25,887 bases of DNA, taken from a virus. The stretch lies in IMG/VR virus record IMGVR_UViG_3300047310_000298, positions 1 through 25,887 of that record. The stretch is one strand, 5' to 3'. The position numbers and the translations under genes are program-made. Positions within the stretch are counted from its first letter, which is position 1. Each line of letters begins with the position of its first letter. The notes below the pieces were generated by a model. That model made no database searches. It saw nothing but the letters and a program-made list of their open reading frames with translations, and was not told where the DNA came from. Shown here piece after piece: positions 3,583 to 19,424 of the stretch.

Positions 3583-4317
3583 TTAGTGACGGCTGTAATT
3601 GCCGACAACGGTATGGGCATCCTGCCATTCCGAACGTCTGAGCTCGAATTTCTTGGGCGGATTGTGCTGGCGGACAAACCAGCTCTGTTCATTCGATCGC
3701 ACAAGCACCTTGACGGTCGCCGTCATATCGACGTTGTCTTTCTTCGACCGGAATACGCAGGTATCGCCGTTTTTTGGAGGCAAATGGGGATCGACAAGAA
3801 CGGTCGAGCCGTTCTTGCATTCTGGATCCATCGAATCGCCGCTGACAATCAGGCCATAAGCATCTTCGCGGCGGGCCAGAAAATCAGGACGCGCCTCCCA
3901 ATCAATCGGCTTTGCTGTCACTGTGAACGCCCCGCCAGGCACTTGAGCTGTGCCATAAACAGGCAATTCCTGCCCTCTGATAATGCGAAAATCGCGGCGG
4001 TTTTCAATAAAATTCTGTGGATCAAACGTGACGCTTTCGCGACTTTCACGCCTTCGTGAATGATTGTTCCCGATCTTTGCATAACCGCGCGGCGGCAGCG
4101 GTGTCGAGCTACCGCGCAATTCATCCTCGGAGAGATTCAAAAGCTGCGCCAGCTTGCCGCGATCGCGTTCGTGCAGCTCGGTCGGTATCCCGCGCTTGAG
4201 GAATTGCTGCAGGTAAGACGCGTTGCGGTTAATGAGGTGCGAGGCCTCCGACATGGTGAGGCCCACCTCGCCAAGCCGCTTTAAAATCAATTCTCTCACA
4301 GCGTCCATCCTGACCAT
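3583..4317 (-). CDS. CI/LexA-type phage repressor with S24 peptidase domain
   Basis: 244 aa. The N-terminal HTH (residues ~8-45: TMSEASHLINRNASYLQQFLKRG) binds DNA; the C-terminal half is an S24-type peptidase/dimerisation domain with the serine in GDSMDPECKNG (Ser162) and the general-base lysine in TATVKVL (Lys203). Known relatives maintain lysogeny and are inactivated by RecA-stimulated self-cleavage. Here the expected cleavage region reads PVYGTAQVPGG (~119-129), with no canonical Ala-Gly or Cys-Gly pair. The start at 4317 gives only a weak upstream RBS; Met4 is an alternative. An operator-like site abuts the start codon, implying autoregulation. It is transcribed divergently from the Cro-like gene and ends at its own terminator. 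Confidence 0.9.
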   Translation of the reverse strand: MVRMDAVRELILKRLGEVGLTMSEASHLINRNASYLQQFLKRGIPTELHERDRGKLAQLLNLSEDELRGSSTPLPPRGYAKIGNNHSRRRESRESVTFDPQNFIENRRDFRIIRGQELPVYGTAQVPGGAFTVTAKPIDWEARPDFLARREDAYGLIVSGDSMDPECKNGSTVLVDPHLPPKNGDTCVFRSKKDNVDMTATVKVLVRSNEQSWFVRQHNPPKKFELRRSEWQDAHTVVGNYSRH

Positions 4318-4318
4318 T

Positions 4319-4330
4319 TAGGACATATCT
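4319..4330. promoter_or_regulatory. Operator-like site abutting the repressor start
   Basis: TAGGACATATCT, a member of the AGGAC-N3-TCY family, lies 2 bases upstream of the repressor ATG. A protein bound here would block repressor transcription or translation initiation, so autoregulation is likely. Confidence 0.5.
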
Positions 4331-4358
4331 GACTCGCACGCTTTAAGGAATTACACCC

Positions 4359-4387
4359 TTGACAGGGTTAGGACTTTTCCTTATCAC
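4359..4387 (+). promoter_or_regulatory. Putative PR promoter with embedded operator
   Basis: TTGACA (4359-4364), a 17-bp spacer and TATCAC (4382-4387). The operator TAGGACTTTTCCTT (4369-4382) fills the spacer. Transcription would start about 4394-4395, on or next to the ATG of the Cro-like gene. Confidence 0.65.
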
Positions 4388-4394
4388 TCCTATT

Positions 4395-4595
4395 ATGAGA
4401 TCACCCACCGAAGCCTTGCTCATAGAAGTCGAGCAATTCCTACGCAAAACCGGCATGGCGCAAACCTCATTCGGGGATTTGGCGCTAGGTGACCCCAACC
4501 TCGTTTCGAATCTGCGTAACGGGCGCGAGCTTCGCTACAAGACCTATCTCAAAGTGCGTGCTTTCATGTCGAACCACGAGCGCAAGTCTGCTTAG
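4395..4595 (+). CDS. Cro-like HTH protein, probably from a leaderless transcript
   Basis: 66 aa beginning MRSPTEALLIEVEQFL. Residues ~20-57 (GMAQTSFGDLALGDPNLVSNLRNGR) form an HTH of the kind common in rhizobial phages (S-F-G...GDPN-V--L--GR). An upstream in-frame TTG at 4359 was rejected because it is the -35 box of the promoter. With the -10 at 4382-4387, transcription should start within a base or two of the ATG and there is no room for an RBS. Its divergent position to the repressor makes it the Cro equivalent. The stop codon lies inside the stem-loop of a strong terminator. Confidence 0.8.
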   Translation: MRSPTEALLIEVEQFLRKTGMAQTSFGDLALGDPNLVSNLRNGRELRYKTYLKVRAFMSNHERKSA

Positions 4596-5005: not shown

Positions 5006-5572
5006 ATGGTGCAAATGATGGTGCATGTGATCACAAAAAACTTTGAAGGCTTCGCGGGAAAGTCCCCTTGTACCGCGGACGCTGGCGCCGTGCCGTTGAC
5101 CATTCCCATTACTAACCCTCGGCACGGCGATCGGCGTTTTCAGGATGAGCACGCCGACAATCACAACCCGCTGACGTGGGAGACGCCGGGGCTCAACGAT
5201 CGGCTGGTCGCCTTGCACGGCGACAAGGGCGCGGATTTTTCGACGTTTGAGCAAATCGCTTGCCAGCTCTCGGACGAATTTGAAATGCACATCACCAAAA
5301 GCGCCTGTGTCGGACGTGCGCGACGTCTAGGGTTACCGCAACGGCTGTTGTTCGTGCGGCGCGTCAAGGTCAAGGCGCCACCGAAGCCGGTGACGGTCGC
5401 GCGCATCGAAGAGCAAACAAGCGAACCGCGGCTTGTCACGATATTCGAATTGGAGCACGGCGAATGCCGCTGGCCGTTCGGCGATGAAGCGCCGTTTTTG
5501 TTTTGCGGGCTTCCCGTCCACAAGCAATCCTCGTGGTGCCGCAAGCATCATAAAATGGTTTACCAGCGATGA
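5006..5572 (+). CDS. GcrA-family cell-cycle regulator homologue
   Basis: 188 aa. Residues ~58-112 match the GcrA HTH layout: a Trp-containing start (LTWETPGLNDRLVALH), then FEQIACQLSDEFEMHITKSACVGRARRLGLP, comparable to the xxIAxxL...T+xAVIGKxHRLGL pattern of GcrA. The C-terminus repeats the family's signature (ECRWPFGDEAPFLFCGLPVH, then SWCRKHHKMVYQR), with Cys/His residues as in host GcrA. Host GcrA recruits sigma70-RNA polymerase at promoters carrying methylated GANTC. The phage protein may redirect host transcription or read host methylation state. The ~55-residue N-terminal extension is unlike host GcrA and may be partly untranslated. The RBS is weak. ATGA overlap with the next gene. Confidence 0.85.
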   Translation: MVQMMVHVITKNFEGFAGKSPCTADAGAVPLTIPITNPRHGDRRFQDEHADNHNPLTWETPGLNDRLVALHGDKGADFSTFEQIACQLSDEFEMHITKSACVGRARRLGLPQRLLFVRRVKVKAPPKPVTVARIEEQTSEPRLVTIFELEHGECRWPFGDEAPFLFCGLPVHKQSSWCRKHHKMVYQR

Positions 5573-7775: not shown

Positions 7776-7808
7776 GAGGGGCGGGGCCTATGATGGGCTC
7801 CGCCCCTC
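7776..7808 (+). promoter_or_regulatory. Hairpin enclosing the RBS and start codon of the primase
   Basis: GAGGGGCGG (7776-7784) pairs perfectly with CCGCCCCTC (7800-7808); four further inner pairs (one G-T) leave a loop of about 7 bases, 7789-7795. The two tandem ATG codons (7790 and 7793) sit in that loop and the Shine-Dalgarno GAGGGG is buried in the stem. This would repress translation unless opened. Confidence 0.65.
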
Positions 7809-9862
7809 ACATTGATTTTGATCCTGACTTTGCCGGTCCCGGTGAATGGGCGGCGATGTACCGCTCGCTCGGTCTGCAGGTGATCCCCTGCTACATGCCG
7901 GACGAGGCGCCGAAAGGCACGCCCTGGAAGCGGCCGAAGCTTGCGGAGTGGACCGAGTACCGCAAAAACCTGGCGCCGCAAGCCACCTTCGAGCGCTGGT
8001 ACGGCAAAGGCGGCGAACACGTCGGCCGCTCCAATATGGGCATTGTGACCGGCATGGCGTCCGGCAACGTGCTTGTGATCGACTTGGACGACCACAAGAC
8101 GCCAAGCGCCGCGGCGTGGTGGCATGACCTGATCGAGTCTGAAAATTCCGGCCTCGACCCCGAGACGGTCGAGCAGCACACAGGCGGCGGCGGACGGCAG
8201 AAACTCTTTCGCTTCCCCGAAGGCTTCCGGGCGCCAACCAACCGCACCTCGATCGGCGTCGATATCAGGGGCACCGGCGGCTTTGCCTTGTTGCCGCCAT
8301 CACGGCACGAATCCGGCCATGTCTACGAGTGGGCGAAAGGCCATGCCCCGTGGGAAACGGAAATAGCAACCGCGCCGCAATGGTTGCTCGACGCCGTTGA
8401 AATGCTGGTCGAGGCGCATGGCGGCGACACGTCCGTTCCTCGTGAAACAACCGCCTCTCCCGGCCATGACTTTGACGATTTCGGCCACCGTACGGACGGC
8501 CGCGAGGCCTACATGGCGCGGGTGGTGTGGGCCTCGATCCTCGATCACAAACGGGAAAACCCGATCGGCCGTCCGTCTGACACCGAACAGCAATTGCGCG
8601 CGTCGGTCGCCTATTCGACCTATGAGCGTTCCGTCGTTTCACGTCTAAGCGGCGCCGCTAAAACCGAGCTGTTGGAACGGGAAGGCCGCGGGCCTACGGC
8701 CTTTTTGGGCAAGTGGCGGGCCTCGATGCGCCATTGGGACGATCGGGTGGCTGAGGAAGCTGCAAAACCAAAGCGTCAATTGACGCCATCGCCAGCACCA
8801 ATTGACGCCAAGCCCACGATCGACCCCGCAACCGGCAAGCCGTTGCCGCTGATCCTGACGGCGGCTGAGTTCGTCGCCGGTTTTACCCCGCCAGCCTACC
8901 TTGTCGACGGGATCCTGCAGCGCGGCTATCTGTATTCGCTCACCGCCCGCACCGGCCACGGCAAGACGGCGCTGGCGATGTATATGGCGCAGTGCATCGC
9001 GCGCGGCCTTCCCATGCACGGGCGCGAGGTCAAATCCGGCACGGTCCTGCTGCTGGCTGGCGAGAACCCCGACGATATCCGGGCGCGGTTGCTGGTGCTG
9101 GCGGACGCCTACGGCTTTGCGGCTGAATCCCTCAAAATGCGGTTCGTGGCCGGCGTGATCAATATCGAGGCACAGTTGCCCGTGATCGAGGCGGCGGCGA
9201 AAGGGATCGACGATCTCGTGCTGGTGATCGTGGACACGGCGGCGGCGTATTTCCTGGGCGATGACGCCAATTCGAACGCCTTGCAGGGCGGCTACGCGCG
9301 GTTGCTGCGGCGGCTGACGTTCCTTCCCGGCAAACCGGCTGTGCTGGTCAACTGCCATCCGATCAAGAATGCCACGCAGGACAATTTGCTGCCGATGGGG
9401 GGCTCGGCATTCGTCAATGAGGTGGACGGTAACCTGACGCTATGGGCGGACGGCGAAAAGCAGATTGTTTTGCATTGGCTCGGCAAGTTCCGCGGGCCGG
9501 AATTTGAACCGGTCGCTTTCGAGATCAGGACGGCTGAAAGCGCGCGGGTGAGGGACGCGGAGGGGCGGCTGATGCCCTCTGTCATTGCAGTTCCGATCGC
9601 CGAGAGCTCGGTCGAAGCGGGTGAAGCCCGTATCGAGACGGATGAAAACCGCGTCCTCGAGATCATGGCAGCGAACGAGGACATTTCGTTTGCGAGCATC
9701 GCAATCAAGGCGGGGTTTGTGAACGAGGGGCGCCCAAGCAAACCGAAAGTGCAGCGCATCATGCGGGCGTTGCTCGCATACGGTTTCGTGACGCAATTTC
9801 GAAACAAGAAGTACCGGATTACCAAAAAAGGGGAGGACGCAATTGGCTACGAAGGTAAATGA
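7790..9862 (+). CDS. Prim-pol / AAA helicase replication protein
   Basis: 690 aa, a primase-helicase fusion. Residues ~15-200 are a bifunctional DNA primase/polymerase (prim-pol) domain: VIDLDD (96-101, metal-binding acidic pair), HTGGGGRQKLF (130-140, GG motif where relatives usually have GG-x-H) and GVDIRGTGGFALLPPS (156-171, third acidic residue). Residues ~365-560 form a RepA/AAA_25-like P-loop ATPase: Walker A ARTGHGKT (386-393), Walker B DLVLVIVDT (475-483) and NCHPIKNA (521-528), with a winged-helix-like C-terminus (DENRVLEIMAANEDISF onward). It should prime and unwind phage DNA at the origin. A candidate iteron cluster directly follows. GTP/ATP preference cannot be judged. Confidence 0.9.
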   Translation: MMGSAPHIDFDPDFAGPGEWAAMYRSLGLQVIPCYMPDEAPKGTPWKRPKLAEWTEYRKNLAPQATFERWYGKGGEHVGRSNMGIVTGMASGNVLVIDLDDHKTPSAAAWWHDLIESENSGLDPETVEQHTGGGGRQKLFRFPEGFRAPTNRTSIGVDIRGTGGFALLPPSRHESGHVYEWAKGHAPWETEIATAPQWLLDAVEMLVEAHGGDTSVPRETTASPGHDFDDFGHRTDGREAYMARVVWASILDHKRENPIGRPSDTEQQLRASVAYSTYERSVVSRLSGAAKTELLEREGRGPTAFLGKWRASMRHWDDRVAEEAAKPKRQLTPSPAPIDAKPTIDPATGKPLPLILTAAEFVAGFTPPAYLVDGILQRGYLYSLTARTGHGKTALAMYMAQCIARGLPMHGREVKSGTVLLLAGENPDDIRARLLVLADAYGFAAESLKMRFVAGVINIEAQLPVIEAAAKGIDDLVLVIVDTAAAYFLGDDANSNALQGGYARLLRRLTFLPGKPAVLVNCHPIKNATQDNLLPMGGSAFVNEVDGNLTLWADGEKQIVLHWLGKFRGPEFEPVAFEIRTAESARVRDAEGRLMPSVIAVPIAESSVEAGEARIETDENRVLEIMAANEDISFASIAIKAGFVNEGRPSKPKVQRIMRALLAYGFVTQFRNKKYRITKKGEDAIGYEGK

Positions 9863-11251: not shown

Positions 11252-11291
11252 ATACGCCCCCTTGACGTAATACGTCTGAGGGGCGTATACG
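11252..11291 (+). promoter_or_regulatory. Palindromic promoter element, copy 1
   Basis: The 37-bp core 11252-11288 has outer arms ATACGCCCC/GGGGCGTAT and inner arms GACGT/ACGTC around AAT, both centred on 11270. TTGACG (11262-11267) and TATACG (11286-11291), 18 bp apart, form a sigma70-type promoter, so a bound dimer would cover it. Transcription would begin near 11298, ahead of the 63-aa gene. A GATTC (GANTC) site starts at the last base of the -10. Confidence 0.75.
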
Positions 11292-11325
11292 ATTCCTATC
11301 GCAATGCAAACAAGGGAATTGAGCA

Positions 11326-11517
11326 ATGGATATCGACCAAATTCGCGACAGGGCGTCGCTGCTTTCGGAAAATGAATGGAGTTTTATCGTCAAGCTCCTG
11401 GCCTACGAGATCGAATGCAACGAAAACGCCACGGCGAAAACCGCGCTTGGCAAGCTGATCGCGCCGACAATCACAATGGCGGAACGTACCGCGCGTCAGC
11501 GGGCGGAACGTATTTAA
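11326..11517 (+). CDS. Hypothetical protein, 63 aa
   Basis: Begins MDIDQIRDRASLLSENEWSF and looks all-helical with an Arg-rich C-terminus (TARQRAERI). First gene behind palindromic promoter copy 1. RBS AAGGGA. No family recognised. Confidence 0.7.
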   Translation: MDIDQIRDRASLLSENEWSFIVKLLAYEIECNENATAKTALGKLIAPTITMAERTARQRAERI

Positions 11518-11528
11518 CCAAAAAGCGA

Positions 11529-11560
11529 ACCGATTGAGGGATTGCACTCCCTCAATCGGT
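11529..11560. other. Perfect 13-bp hairpin between two small genes
   Basis: ACCGATTGAGGGA (11529-11541) pairs perfectly with 11548-11560 around the loop TTGCAC. There is no T run to the right; an A5 run (11520-11524) lies to the left, so it would act as a terminator only for leftward transcripts. It may be an mRNA-stabilising or processing structure in the operon. Confidence 0.6.
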
Positions 11561-11592
11561 CCTGACCAAAAACCCCTGTTAGGAGGGATCAA

Positions 11593-11817
11593 ATGGCTAC
11601 CCAAGACTACAATTTTCAGGATCGCATGGCGAGCGGCAAGGACAATAATCACGAACGGCGTCAGCGCGGTTTGCCAGCCGGGACGAACGCAAAGGGCTGG
11701 CAGTTCGAACGGTCCTATGGCGGTCACGATGAATGGTTCGCCAAGTGGCGGACGCGCTGGATATCCGATTGCTACGAGATCCAGCGGACGTTTCTCAAGA
11801 CTGCGGAGGGGGTGTGA
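11593..11817 (+). CDS. Hypothetical protein, 74 aa
   Basis: The N-terminus is polar (MATQDYNFQDRMASGKDNNH) and the C-terminal half aromatic and basic (GGHDEWFAKWRTRWISD). Strong RBS AGGAGGG. Stop lies one base before the next ATG. Unknown function. Confidence 0.7.
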   Translation: MATQDYNFQDRMASGKDNNHERRQRGLPAGTNAKGWQFERSYGGHDEWFAKWRTRWISDCYEIQRTFLKTAEGV

Positions 11818-11818
11818 C

Positions 11819-12010
11819 ATGGCGATTTGCGGTTTGCCTGGACAATTCGATTTGCCGGGGACGGCAGGATCGAACGCGGATTTGCTGGCGCGCAGATCCG
11901 CTCAACCGCTGAGGCCGGCGCGCGCACAACTGGCGTGCGATGCCGGTCTTTTCGGAGACGAAAAAAACCAGCTCGATTTGCTCGAGCGGTTTGCTGATCC
12001 GGTTTGCTGA
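11819..12010 (+). CDS. Small protein with clamp-binding-like motif
   Basis: 63 aa beginning MAICGLPGQFDLPGTAGSN. Near the C-terminus is NQLDLLERF, whose QLDLL resembles the bacterial beta-clamp-binding pentapeptide QL(S/D)LF; GQFDLP near the N-terminus is a weaker echo. No fold recognised. Binding to the host sliding clamp is speculative. The RBS (GGAGGGGG) is inside the preceding gene. The stop codon is part of one of the CGGTTTGC repeats. Confidence 0.55.
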   Translation: MAICGLPGQFDLPGTAGSNADLLARRSAQPLRPARAQLACDAGLFGDEKNQLDLLERFADPVC

Positions 12011-12041
12011 TTTGCGTTTGCGGTTTGCTTCACCGGTTTGC
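11987..12041. repeat. Four CGGTTTGC direct repeats
   Basis: Copies start at 11987, 12000, 12021 and 12034 (spacing 13, 21, 13). Further single copies lie at 11667, 11830 and 15579. All point the same way. The cluster covers the end of one gene and the leader of the HTH gene, so it may be an operator or iteron set; it may equally be local duplication. Confidence 0.5.
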
Positions 12042-12070
12042 CGATTTGGCTGGAGGAAAGGAAAAGGGAA

Positions 12071-12286
12071 ATGAAAATGACACCGGCACAATTCCGAATT
12101 GCGATCGATAAATTCGGACTGTCGCAGCAGCGCGCGGCGGAATTTTTCGGGTATTCGCCGCGACAGGGGCAGCGATGGGCCTTGGGCGAAACGGAAATCC
12201 CCGTATCGGTTGCCTACCTGATCGCGGAAATGATCAGGCACAAGGTAACGCCCGAGGAACTGATCAAGCGCCATTCCAAGAAATAA
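12071..12286 (+). CDS. Cro/XRE-like HTH DNA-binding protein
   Basis: 71 aa from ATG 12071, with RBS AAAAGGGA; an upstream ATG at 12038 lacks a good RBS. Residues 3-45 (MTPAQFRIAIDKFGLSQQRAAEFFGYSPRQGQRWALGE) are a typical phage HTH: L-SQ--AA-FFG-S-R--QRW--GE. It lies between palindromic promoter copies 1 and 2, so it is a natural candidate for the protein binding them. That link is inferred from position only. Confidence 0.85.
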   Translation: MKMTPAQFRIAIDKFGLSQQRAAEFFGYSPRQGQRWALGETEIPVSVAYLIAEMIRHKVTPEELIKRHSKK

Positions 12287-12291
12287 ACGCT

Positions 12292-12331
12292 ATACGCCCC
12301 CTTGACGTAATACGTCTGAGGGGCGTATAAG
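12292..12331 (+). promoter_or_regulatory. Palindromic promoter element, copy 2
   Basis: The 37-bp core 12292-12328 is identical to copy 1, including TTGACG (12302-12307); the -10 is TATAAG (12326-12331). It drives the 85-aa/134-aa gene pair. Flanking sequence is unrelated to copy 1, so the conserved unit is sharply limited to the dyad. Confidence 0.75.
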
Positions 12332-12360
12332 CATGACAGTTGAAACAAGGGGAAAAGACA

Positions 12361-12618
12361 ATGTTGCAGATATTCAAGGCCTCGCTGGAAACACGCAATT
12401 TTTCATTCGAGGCGTACGGCTATAGCGAAGTGGAAGCGCACTACATCATGCGGCAGGTGTGGGCGAAGCATCGACGTCAGCTTGGCGCAACCGACACTTG
12501 GGCCGATGTTGAGGAAAGCGTGAACGTACAAGAGATCATCGTGAATGCTGGTTATCGTGACGGGACATTGATCCATCGACAGACAAAAGCGAGGGGAAAG
12601 AAAAATGAAAACGCTTGA
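12361..12618 (+). CDS. Hypothetical protein, 85 aa
   Basis: Start at ATG 12361 (MLQIFKASLETRNFSFEAYG) behind AAGGGGA; an upstream TTG was rejected. Mixed alpha/beta with a basic C-terminal tail (HRQTKARGKKNENA). It overlaps the next gene by 14 bases. Unknown function. Confidence 0.7.
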   Translation: MLQIFKASLETRNFSFEAYGYSEVEAHYIMRQVWAKHRRQLGATDTWADVEESVNVQEIIVNAGYRDGTLIHRQTKARGKKNENA

Positions 12619-13009
12619 ACAATTTATCACGGAACACGGTCTGAAAATGAACTGGCGTACCGTTGATACGAATCCGAATTTTGCCTCCGACGAAAAATGG
12701 ATGGCGAGTGCTCATCATTTCCGTTGCGTGATCCGCAAGGGCAAGCGGGGAATGACGGTAGGCTATAGTCAGGGGTCAGGCGTAACCACTGATCCGACAT
12801 TGCCGGACGTGTTGAACTGCCTCGCGATGGATGCCAGCGCATTGCAATCCTCTTTCGAGGAATGGTGCGGCGAATATGGTTATGACGTTGACAGCCGCAA
12901 GGCGGAAAAGATTTTCCGAATCTGCCGCCGTCAGGGGCAAAGCCTGTTGCGGATATTGGGTGGTCAAGCTGCGCTTGATGACCTGATGTACCAGACCGAA
13001 AGATTATAA
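12605..13009 (+). CDS. Conserved-looking phage hypothetical, 134 aa
   Basis: Begins MKTLEQFITEHGLKMNWRTV. The middle (FRCVIRKGKRGMTVGYSQGSG) is beta-like; the C-terminal half (EEWCGEYGYDVDSRKAEKIF onward) is helical. The layout resembles a widespread small phage protein of unknown role, often near early promoters. RBS AGGGGA inside the preceding gene. Confidence 0.75.
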   Translation: MKTLEQFITEHGLKMNWRTVDTNPNFASDEKWMASAHHFRCVIRKGKRGMTVGYSQGSGVTTDPTLPDVLNCLAMDASALQSSFEEWCGEYGYDVDSRKAEKIFRICRRQGQSLLRILGGQAALDDLMYQTERL

Positions 13010-13018
13010 ATAATTGCA

Positions 13019-13058
13019 ATACGCCCCCTTGACGTAATACGTCTGGGGGGCGTATATT
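13019..13058 (+). promoter_or_regulatory. Palindromic promoter element, copy 3
   Basis: Core 13019-13055 differs from copies 1 and 2 by one base (A to G at 13046), which makes the dyad longer by one pair. TTGACG is at 13029-13034 and the -10, TATATT (13053-13058), is the best of the three. It heads the seven-gene unit that ends at 15150. Confidence 0.75.
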
Positions 13059-13095
13059 ACCGGACATGGAAAAAGAGCAACACGGAGTTAGGAAC

Positions 13096-13836
13096 ATGAT
13101 CCGCAAGGGCGACAGGGTGAACATCAAGCCGCAATGGCAGGATGAGGGCGACAAGGGTTTTATCTGGGTCGCATTGAATGATGAGGAAAAGGGGCGCGTC
13201 GATATCACGCCGACAGGACCATCATGGGAAGCATGGCGTTTCCCGCCGTCCTATTGCGCCAAGGTTGAATGGCTCGAAAACATGGGGAGTGCAATGCCGG
13301 AATTTCATCCTGAATTTTCCGATTATCCGCTCGCTGATCTGCCCGCGATGCCCGAGGGGTTTTCGGATTCATCTTGGCATAATGACGTTTGCCCGAGTTA
13401 CAGAAGCGAAACACTTGGCTTGCAGATTTTCATGGATTACGTGGACAAGTCCTTGAGCGAAAGCGCGATGGGTACGCGTTTTTCAATCCATCGCGACATG
13501 CCCGATGGCTCAAGCGATGTCGTTTTTCAATCGGATGATTGGGCAGACATTGTTGAATTTGTCGAGGGTGAGAAAACCCGCGCGCCTATGCGGATTCTAT
13601 ACACCAGCGATGGCGAGGTGTCTGGCGTAATGACGCTTAATGAGCTGGTGCGGAATTTCGATTCTTCAAGCGCATGGTACGGGCCGAATGGCGAGGGCGT
13701 ACGTTACGCCGACAAGATGCAACGCCACTTGCGCGAGCGTGGCTGGTTCACGGGGCACCATGATTGCGGCGATTATCTTGTCGTTAATATCGACCTCTTT
13801 CATCTTGAATACCGCGACCCCGCGATGGACGCCTGA
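13096..13836 (+). CDS. Hypothetical two-part protein, 246 aa
   Basis: Start taken at 13096 (MIRKGDRVNIKPQWQDEGDK) because this opening matches a common small phage protein and TAGGA lies just ahead; an in-frame ATG at 13066 would sit at the transcription start and would be leaderless. Residues 1-45 form a small beta-rich module; the rest (IFMDYVDKSLSESAMGTRFS; GTRFSIHRDMPDGSS) looks like an unrelated alpha/beta domain, so this may be a fusion. Acidic overall. No catalytic motif recognised. Confidence 0.75.
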   Translation: MIRKGDRVNIKPQWQDEGDKGFIWVALNDEEKGRVDITPTGPSWEAWRFPPSYCAKVEWLENMGSAMPEFHPEFSDYPLADLPAMPEGFSDSSWHNDVCPSYRSETLGLQIFMDYVDKSLSESAMGTRFSIHRDMPDGSSDVVFQSDDWADIVEFVEGEKTRAPMRILYTSDGEVSGVMTLNELVRNFDSSSAWYGPNGEGVRYADKMQRHLRERGWFTGHHDCGDYLVVNIDLFHLEYRDPAMDA

Positions 13837-13838
13837 CC

Positions 13839-14084
13839 ATGACAAACCAAGAAATGATCGCACACTTTCAGAAACTCGCGGATATCGGCAAACCAATCAA
13901 TGACGATGATTGGGGGAGCGAGCGTCAAATCACGGCACAGAATTATTTTTTCGGGGAATTTGATATCAATTTTCCCGAATTGAATACCGCTGAATTTGAG
14001 CATTACTGTAACAAGGCGCGAACGGAAGAAATGTTCGACGAAGCGATGCGGCTTATTCGTAACAAACTCGACAAGGGGAAATGA
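13839..14084 (+). CDS. Hypothetical protein, 81 aa
   Basis: Begins MTNQEMIAHFQKLADIGKPI and is acidic with helical ends and a central aromatic stretch (NYFFGEFDINFPEL). It starts 2 bases after the previous stop and overlaps the next start (ATGA). Unknown. Confidence 0.65.
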   Translation: MTNQEMIAHFQKLADIGKPINDDDWGSERQITAQNYFFGEFDINFPELNTAEFEHYCNKARTEEMFDEAMRLIRNKLDKGK

Positions 14085-14290
14085 CAATGACGAAATCAAC
14101 TCGCTACATCGTGCGCGACAAGGCGACGAAAGGAGCGGATTTTTTAATGTGGGGCGACAATGACCCCGACGCCGCGCAAGTGACTTTGCAACAGTGCCAT
14201 GCGGACGGACTCGACGTCGAATTAGTGACAATGGCACCGGATGAAATGGACTCGCACACAAAAACACTGATTGAGGGGAAAACCAAATGA
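14081..14290 (+). CDS. Hypothetical protein, 69 aa
   Basis: Begins MTMTKSTRYIVRDKATKGAD. Short alpha/beta, acidic, no known motif. Both ends overlap neighbours by 4 bases, so it is translationally coupled. Confidence 0.65.
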   Translation: MTMTKSTRYIVRDKATKGADFLMWGDNDPDAAQVTLQQCHADGLDVELVTMAPDEMDSHTKTLIEGKTK

Positions 14291-14502
14291 GCGGCAGCAA
14301 TCTCGGAAAGAATGAAATCGATATCCTCGAAACGATTATCGACAAACGGGGAATCGATCAGGTGTTAATCGCGCTGTCTGAATTGTGCGGGGCAAAGGCT
14401 GAGCACATTCTCGCAAACTGGCAGGATCGAATCCTTGCGAAGCGATGGGCAACCGTCGAGGGCGCAATCGGTTGCGCCGTTCCACATGCAACAGGACTCT
14501 AG
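14287..14502 (+). CDS. Hypothetical protein, 71 aa
   Basis: Begins MSGSNLGKNEIDILETIIDK; mostly helical, including LIALSELCGAKAEHILANW. RBS GAGGGGAAA. Unknown role. Confidence 0.65.
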   Translation: MSGSNLGKNEIDILETIIDKRGIDQVLIALSELCGAKAEHILANWQDRILAKRWATVEGAIGCAVPHATGL

Positions 14503-14504
14503 CC

Positions 14505-14687
14505 ATGATCACAAACGAAAAAGATTTACGCCGCGCATTTTGGGAAAGTCACCCGAATGCGAGTAAGCGTACATTGCGCGATGGCGATTACGTCACCGAT
14601 ACGCGTATCGCCTTTGTCGAGTACGTCGACGCGCTGGCGCGTGATGGCGTGATTACCGAGGAACTGGCGCAACGGGTGACGTTATGA
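14505..14687 (+). CDS. Hypothetical protein, 60 aa
   Basis: Start at ATG 14505, 2 bases after the upstream stop; an earlier in-frame ATG lies inside that gene and was not used. Begins MITNEKDLRRAFWESHPNAS; helical, with a D-Y-V-T-D-T-R-I-A-F-V-E-Y-V-D-A-L segment. Overlaps the next start by 4 bases. Confidence 0.65.
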   Translation: MITNEKDLRRAFWESHPNASKRTLRDGDYVTDTRIAFVEYVDALARDGVITEELAQRVTL

Positions 14688-14926
14688 AATTCCGCGAATT
14701 GAAAATCGGGGACCGATTCGATTTTGTCAGTCCTAATCGAATGCTCAACAGTTATTTTGAGCGATGCGTGAAACGATCCGCGCAAACTTACACCGCTGAA
14801 AATGCCGACTCGCAAGTTGTCATGCGAGTCGGTTCAATCAACGTTGAGGTTTATCACGTCGAGACGCCCGAGGATCGCGAGGCGCGCACGGCGATTCATT
14901 GTGAACAAGATGAGCCAAACCGATGA
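14684..14926 (+). CDS. Hypothetical beta-rich protein, 80 aa
   Basis: Begins MKFRELKIGDRFDFVSPNRM, a small beta-barrel-like opening (KIGDRFDFV), and continues with a basic strand (YFERCVKRSAQTYTAEN) and an acidic tail. ATGA couplings on both sides. Unknown. Confidence 0.65.
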   Translation: MKFRELKIGDRFDFVSPNRMLNSYFERCVKRSAQTYTAENADSQVVMRVGSINVEVYHVETPEDREARTAIHCEQDEPNR

Positions 14927-15150
14927 GAAACTTTCTTCGCAATCTTTACGAGACGTTCGCTTGCATTGGGATCGTGTTCGCTGCTGCCGTGTTTGTCTGC
15001 AATGCGCCGACTCCTGCCGCTTTGTGGGAATGGGTCATTAGGACGATAGCAGTGCCGTTTGTGCTGGCCTCATCCGATCCGTTGACAGCTTGCGTGCTGG
15101 TCATTGGATTGATCAGCGCGCCAGTGCTTTTGTGGGCGCATATTGAGTGA
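14923..15150 (+). CDS. Small membrane protein, two transmembrane segments
   Basis: 75 aa. TM1 is about residues 12-27 (FACIGIVFAAAVFVCN) and TM2 about 55-72 (LTACVLVIGLISAPVLLW), with a weakly hydrophobic middle. It ends the third small-gene unit. A holin-like or superinfection-exclusion function fits the shape, but it is far from the peptidase gene and nothing shows which. Confidence 0.7.
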   Translation: MRNFLRNLYETFACIGIVFAAAVFVCNAPTPAALWEWVIRTIAVPFVLASSDPLTACVLVIGLISAPVLLWAHIE

Positions 15151-18761: not shown

Positions 18762-19424
18762 ATGCGTAAAGCAGCAATGCTGGCCGGGGCATTTCTTTTG
18801 TGCGCTGGCGCAGCCAGGGCCGATCAATTCGACTACGGCAGTTTCGGCCAGATCAACGGCCAGAATATCACCATCACGTCACCGACAAGTATCGGTGTCA
18901 GCGCTGGCATGATCGTCCTCAACGGTACGGGACCGAATGCCGGTCAGACGTTGGACGCCTGGTGCGTCGACTTGTTTGATCATCTGCAAGCCAACGCGAT
19001 CTACAATATCGTGCCGCTCACCACCGCGGGCGTCGGCTTTCCCAATCCAATCCTGACCAACCAGCAAATTGCCGAGCTCGGATCCTTGATGATCCACGGC
19101 ACCTCGAGCACGCTTGGCAATACCTTTGGCCTCGACGGCTCGGCCGCGTTCCAGCTCGCGATCTGGAACGTCGAATACCAGGGCACGCTTTTGGATAACG
19201 CGTCTGGTGCATTGGCAACGCTGGTTGCGGCGCTTGTCGCCAACGTACAGCCGGGCGGGATCTGGGATTGTCCCGGTTGCTCGGTTGAATTGCTGGACGC
19301 GCCCGCACAAAATCAAATCCTGGCGTTTGGCGTCGATACAACGCCATTGCCGGGAGCGGTTTGGCTGTTCGCGGGCGGGCTCGGGCTGCTTGGCGTGTTC
19401 GGACGCAAACGAAAACTGGCATAG
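18762..19424 (+). CDS. Exported PEP-CTERM-like surface protein (probable moron)
   Basis: 220 aa. The N-terminal signal peptide (MRKAAMLAGAFLLCAGAARA, cut after ~20) and the C-terminus (TPLPGAVWLFAGGLGLLGVF, then GRKRKLA) have the three-part layout of PEP-CTERM/VPLPA-type sorting signals: proline motif, transmembrane helix, basic tail. In bacteria such proteins are processed by an exosortase and displayed or shed at the surface. The middle region is Gly/Asn/Thr rich, low in charge, with WCVDL and a CPGC pair, and may be beta-rich. It has its own RBS (GTGAGG) and interrupts the lysis-to-portal interval. It is not a recognised virion gene, so a host-altering cargo gene is likely. No exosortase is encoded here. 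Confidence 0.75.
   Translation: MRKAAMLAGAFLLCAGAARADQFDYGSFGQINGQNITITSPTSIGVSAGMIVLNGTGPNAGQTLDAWCVDLFDHLQANAIYNIVPLTTAGVGFPNPILTNQQIAELGSLMIHGTSSTLGNTFGLDGSAAFQLAIWNVEYQGTLLDNASGALATLVAALVANVQPGGIWDCPGCSVELLDAPAQNQILAFGVDTTPLPGAVWLFAGGLGLLGVFGRKRKLA

Follow-up and report, generated by a model that had tools for sequence, protein, structure and literature searches.

Aca proteins are helix-turn-helix (HTH) repressors of anti-CRISPR operons; their binding sites are one or two inverted repeats that lie within the core promoter or next to it, and the regulator is encoded at the end of the operon (PMC9410906). The minimal operator of Aca10 from Pseudomonas citronellolis, defined by EMSA, is ATACGCTCATTGAGCGTAT, which overlaps the -35 and -10 boxes of the acrIC7-acrIC6-aca10 promoter (PMC9410881, 7XI5). 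Residues Q22, R34 and Q37 of Aca10 are implicated in reading DNA (Q22 and Q37 were mutated), and R44 is its most critical DNA contact (PMC9410881). In archaeal viruses, too, many small early genes have one regulatory sequence in common, their presumed repressor being an Aca-type protein; new anti-defence genes were discovered through the sequence shared with Aca8 (PMC11065993).

The present analysis concerns a 25,887 bp virus record from IMG/VR, the whole of which is called the window. From its sequence, and from a structural model, we consider it likely that three early promoters of an accessory regulon, which may serve anti-defence, are silenced by an autorepressor resembling Aca10. The closest parallel is the Aca10 system, with a 19 bp operator of the same 7-5-7 layout (ATACGCT-N5-AGCGTAT) lying over -35 and -10, and an HTH gene downstream of small genes. 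That system has one operon and one functional site, whereas here there are 3-5 dispersed promoters with two sites each, the proteins share about 27-29% identity, and there is no known acr gene. The autorepression circuit of Aca1-Aca10 is proposed here by analogy; their sites lie at the aca-containing operon, while in the present case sites also precede operons without an HTH gene. As far as the literature searched shows, no bacterial Aca protein has been described that serves several promoters, each with tandem double sites, instead of a single operon. The archaeal Aca8 system differs in its archaeal promoters, its winged HTH family and a regulatory sequence that is not an Aca10-type dyad.

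Judged by its genes (P22-type portal, Phage_capsid_3 capsid, terminase, Prim-Pol/AAA protein and S24-peptidase repressor), the phage is temperate and podovirus-like, of the P22-portal type. The chromosome of Afipia clevelandensis carries a terminase 76% identical to that of the window, which suggests a host in the Bradyrhizobium family. A blastn search with 4.6 kb of the window against 50,697 phage records gave no match. Elsewhere in the window, a predicted secreted protein (18762-19424) has by eye a PEP/VPLPA-CTERM-like sorting tail, TPLPGAVWLFAGGLGLLGVFGRKRKLA, which is unusual in a phage, and two pairs of adjacent paralogues, also recognised by eye, lie downstream of the capsid gene (23915-24334/24379-24780 and 24834-25133/25258-25704).

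Tandem dyads in the promoter elements

The earlier note described three copies of a 37 bp element, and all three are present on the plus strand, at 11252-11288, 12292-12328 and 13019-13055. Each stands in front of a run of small plus-strand genes, and the three runs occupy the region flanked by the replication genes on one side and the terminase on the other. A search with the outer-arm pattern, allowing up to three mismatches, found exactly these three matches in the window (0.00 in shuffles), and alignment shows that copies 1 and 2 are the same over the full 37 bp while copy 3 has a single change, A to G at position 28. The -35 and -10 boxes are also as described: each copy has TTGACG, an 18 bp spacer, and then TATACG, TATAAG or TATATT. 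These boxes are at 11262-11267 and 11286-11291 in copy 1, 12302-12307 and 12326-12331 in copy 2, and 13029-13034 and 13053-13058 in copy 3. Copy 2 starts 6 bp past the stop codon of the HTH gene. The flanks were thought to be unrelated, which is only partly so, as copies 1 and 3, and most copies in relatives, have an A/T-rich tract (AAAATAATT-like) in front of them. This tract, just upstream of most copies, may correspond to an UP element, which it resembles.

The anatomy of the element was determined from ten aligned copies of three phage lineages: three from the window, five from contig L022 and two from contig L028. Each is made up of four copies of the half-site ATACGYC that form two tandem 19 bp dyads (O1 and O2) with a 7-5-7 layout. 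The consensus of O1 is [A/T]T[A/G]CGCC-N5-GAC[G/A]TA[A/T] and contains the -35 box TTGAC[G/A]; that of O2 is AT[A/G]CG[C/T][C/T]-N5-GGCGTAT, and it covers the spacer and runs into the -10 box. In copy 1, O1 (11252-11270) reads ATACGCC-ccctt-GACGTAA and O2 (11270-11288) reads ATACGTC-tgagg-GGCGTAT. The corresponding dyads are at 12292-12310 and 12310-12328 in copy 2, and at 13019-13037 and 13037-13055 in copy 3, where the centre of O2 is tgggg.

The spacing within dyads (half-sites A to A' in O1, B to C in O2) is 5 in all ten copies. The distance between the centres of O1 and O2, which equals the -35/-10 spacer, is 18 in the window and in one L022 copy, and 17 elsewhere. All four half-sites are conserved over the ten copies, with C invariant and B nearly so, while the 5 nt centre of O2 varies (0.6-1.5 bits, compared with mostly 2.0 in the flanking half-site columns). 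A variable centre between fixed half-sites is as expected of a dimer reading two half-sites. When the whole window was scanned with the 7-5-7 matrix, the six known sites scored 21-23 and nothing else exceeded 11.5.

The element had been read as a single concentric palindrome. This symmetry is a by-product of the two tandem dyads, which are built from the same half-site, and the diverged copies speak against a single palindrome because they do not retain GACGT/ACGTC as a pair and their A-to-C arm distance shifts by 1, while the dyad spacings hold. The change in copy 3 does add a base pair, as proposed, but it falls in the variable 5 nt centre of O2 and is probably neutral for that reason. A hairpin in transcribed RNA was considered and rejected, as the palindrome is upstream of, or on, the -10 box and so would be absent from its own transcript.

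The element recurs, in diverged form, in two relatives and each time upstream of small genes. L022 (longer copy, L029) was found by a search with the Prim-Pol protein, has a terminase 89% identical to that of the window, and carries five diverged copies at 5509, 5856, 6366, 6918 and 7487; its copy 1 contains the dyad ATACGCT-ttacg-GGCGTAT. L028, with a terminase 90% identical, has two. With a matrix built from the copies, true sites score 41-48 and the best shuffled score is 16. Exact matches among viral contigs were confined to near-identical contigs (L004-L006), which are not independent. Distant terminase relatives (49-80% identity), some of them short fragments, have no copy. Other viral sequences that match just the outer arms are G+C palindromes with no relation to the element; they lack the TTGAC core, and some look like terminators by eye. 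The suggestion that host genomes be searched led to no host element: in 249 Afipia-family genomes the core pattern had 0 exact matches, and matches with one mismatch were below the reversed-pattern control, ruling out this origin. The primase-helicase of the window (7790-9862) and that of L022 (1674-3785) form a mosaic, being closely similar in the N-terminal part and replaced in the C-terminal part; the tblastn match stops at residue 494.

The candidate repressor and the Aca10 operator

The HTH protein encoded at 12071-12286, between copies 1 and 2, had been labelled Cro-like. By fold and profile it is instead Aca10/MqsA-like. The 71 aa protein is modelled by AlphaFold2 (five sequences) with a pLDDT of 90.7 and five helices, and its small, dimer-type fold matches Aca10 (7XI5) in Foldseek with a TMt of 0.81, an rmsd of 1.3 Å and 29% identity. 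The best solved structures were the MqsA C-terminal domain, marginally ahead, and Aca10, with E-values of just 5e-3, followed by HigA2, Aca2 and, lower down the list, Aca1. At the sequence level a family profile picks up both Aca10 and Aca1 (E 0.001-0.009; 7XI5 at 0.0014-0.0037), while phmmer with the single protein did not find Aca10. Pairwise, the protein is 27% identical to a plasmid Aca10 homologue (E 5e-5). L022 encodes an orthologue directly after its copy 1, with 59% identity across the aligned region. The Aca10 contact residues Q22, R34 and Q37 are conserved, as Q19, R31 and Q34 of the window protein; R44 is not, its position being occupied by Thr in the window and Lys in L022. We class the protein as Aca10-like rather than as a member of the Aca proteins: none of the known anti-CRISPR genes is found alongside it, and its role as a repressor is a prediction.

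The motif ATACGYC-N5-GRCGTAT was set down from the copies before it was compared with the published Aca10 operator. The latter reads ATACGCT-CATTG-AGCGTAT, a 7-5-7 dyad with half-site ATACGCT and the same geometry as the window dyads. O1 agrees with it less well, because half of O1 is also the -35 box. In a blind scan, only the 14 half-site positions of the Aca10 operator were scored. Out of 17,231 positions in L029, ranks one to five went to its five O2 sites (13, 12, 12, 11 and 11 of 14), and in L028 ranks one and two likewise went to the two O2 sites. The result for the window is modest: the highest score, 11, is reached by the three O2 sites and by a fourth position, against 0.9 positions expected at that score by chance.

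Two plasmid homologues, found from an Aca10 fragment, have the best-scoring site upstream. On Comamonas aquatica plasmid pB1A (L104, 470-1371), ATACGAA-caatg-AACGTAT lies just before an antirestriction gene, with the HTH gene next in line; this is probably an anti-restriction operon that is controlled in the Aca10 manner. On a Paracidovorax plasmid (L107), ATGCGCT-cattg-GACGTAT lies upstream of the Aca10 homologue and uses the half-site variants ATGCGC and ATACGTC, which also occur in the phages described here.

Specificity was surveyed in the 950 bases upstream of 30 HTH homologues. Exact TACG-type dyads were found only in the window and L022, both with Gln34, like Aca10. Exact TAGG-type dyads, without the C-type, occur at L076, L077 and L095, all with Arg34, and TAGG-type dyads also occur at L083 (Tyr). 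Most other homologues of the 30, many with Arg34 included, have neither dyad type, and in the majority of the Arg homologues no dyad can be recognised. These few loci suggest a simple recognition rule for this HTH family in which Arg at residue 34 pairs with a half-site changed from C to G. Arg reading G at half-site position 4 is chemically sensible. Homologues from 517 genomes are mostly remote and mostly lack a recognisable dyad. At L077, Bradyrhizobium phage ppBeUSDA76-2, the TAGGGC dyads (1335-1372) have the same 7-5-7 layout, the second one being weak, and lie upstream of a gene of unknown function and the HTH homologue WAX24438.1 (45%). Near the distant HTH homologues of L041 (His) and L073 (Asn) there are palindromic promoters, repeated or divergent, whose half-sites are TGTC-like; these operators were assigned by hand (L041, 2500-2550 and 3200-3275; L073, 3440-3535) and include TTGACAGGG-TGTC... 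and TTGACAGCCCTG-C-GGCTGTC.

A proposed circuit and its alternatives

With its Aca10 likeness and the match to a measured operator, the HTH protein is the best-supported candidate for the binder that the earlier note proposed, and binding, dimerisation, repression and timing by this protein are what we infer. Each element would be a strong sigma-70-type promoter, with O1 over the -35 box and O2 over the spacer and -10 box. On infection, the phage DNA would be naked and the three promoters would fire together, producing the small genes and the repressor. As the Aca10-like dimeric repressor from operon 1 accumulated, it would fill O1 and O2 at all three promoters and occlude RNA polymerase, shutting off the whole block, its own gene included. 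Two dimers on O1 and O2 would sit on different faces of the helix, since the centres are just 17-18 bp apart.

The block might instead be kept silent in the prophage by the main lysogeny repressor (S24, 3583-4317, minus strand), with the elements as its operators. Repressor sites repeated across a phage genome are known (cluster A stoperators, PMC6550527; SPbeta operators, PMC8270828), and a temperate phage may benefit from having the block off in lysogeny. Stoperators are asymmetric, bound by the immunity repressor and mostly outside promoters, and the SPbeta operators come from another type of phage and differ in sequence. Such sets also differ in that no element site is found at the S24 repressor's own control region: around 4317-4395 no ATACGYC dyad rises above chance, and 4318-4379 has a different repeat, TTAGGAC. 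As the Aca10 operator match points to the HTH protein, we regard control by S24 as unlikely. The direct repeat in this S24-repressor/Cro-like intergenic region, TTAGGAC(A/T)T(A/T)TC in full, is unrelated to the 37 bp element and may possibly represent immunity operators. An MqsA/HigA-type antitoxin, with a toxin-antitoxin pair in the block, would account for the MqsA C-terminal domain being the closest fold and for the hit to the NCBIfam MqsA model (E 2.6e-4, below its cut-off). It is nonetheless very unlikely, given that no toxin family occurs among the neighbours, that such pairs do not usually have an HTH protein acting on several separate promoters, and that Aca10 shares these fold relatives.

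Repression does not follow from the mere presence of a palindrome over a promoter, and the sites could serve an activator, or a host regulator that times phage expression. The near-consensus -35 box, 17-18 bp spacers, good -10 boxes and A/T tracts make an activator unnecessary, sites over -35 and -10 occlude polymerase, and the 249 genomes of the nearest host family hold no exact match, so that we find this quite improbable. It is least probable that recombination or duplication simply spread a strong promoter with an unbound palindrome. The window copies are nearly identical, and promoter parts alone would keep TTGAC and TATA, but half-site B, which lies in the spacer and is dispensable for sigma-70, is conserved across diverged copies while the adjacent 5 nt vary, and it agrees with a repressor site that has been measured. 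The best-supported reading is broadly that of the earlier note, a regulon of small genes with operators embedded in its promoters, the element being upstream of small genes in all three lineages.

Genes behind the promoters

All of the genes that follow are on the plus strand. Operon 1 runs from its promoter through small genes to the HTH gene, which is last, as in acr-aca operons (PMC9410906). Its first gene, orf63 (11326-11517), has no family; orf74 (11593-11817) has a homologue in L022 (70% over 40 aa), located after L022 copy 2; and a 63 aa ORF (11819-12010) is by eye like the small ORF that follows the orf74 homologue. Operon 2 begins with an 85 aa ORF without a family (12361-12618), followed by a 134 aa ORF (12605-13009) matching PHROG 4273 (function unknown, E 5.5e-22). 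The first gene of operon 3 was called at 13066-13836, but as a start at 13066 leaves almost no leader, the ATG at 13096 (ribosome site GGAG) is more likely, giving a protein of about 246 aa (13096-13836). Further small genes of this operon are at 13839-14084, 14081-14290, 14287-14502, 14505-14687, 14684-14926 and 14923-15150.

Gene content after the copies is reshuffled among relatives while the promoters are retained. The orf74 homologue has its own element in L022, and two operon 3 genes (orf71, 55%, and orf60, 50% identical) have homologues downstream of an L028 element, a different copy. By this reshuffling, the element marks interchangeable cassettes.

PHROG, Pfam and NCBIfam searches assigned no function to the small genes; for the neighbours tested in these databases no hit names an Acr, and no small gene matches a known anti-CRISPR. 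By guilt by association, and with the archaeal Aca8 case as a precedent, the genes behind the promoters may be anti-defence genes, an assignment we offer tentatively; it is a better-motivated guess than the host takeover raised previously. It is conceivable, though doubtful, that the locus represents a multi-operon Aca-type regulon in which a single Aca10-like repressor governs 3-5 modular operons with tandem double operators, its small genes forming a new anti-CRISPR or anti-defence reservoir in phages of Rhizobiales-type hosts. To our knowledge, very few anti-defence genes are known in phages of alphaproteobacteria; if the reading is true, the operator alone would be a search handle for candidates in these phages. 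A repeat that was unknown is now tied to a measured repressor site, and each gene behind it gets a testable hypothesis. Between orf63 and orf74 (11527-11562) there is a strong 15 bp hairpin with a T-run on the minus-strand side only, which in the plus-strand transcript may be an attenuator or a processing site.
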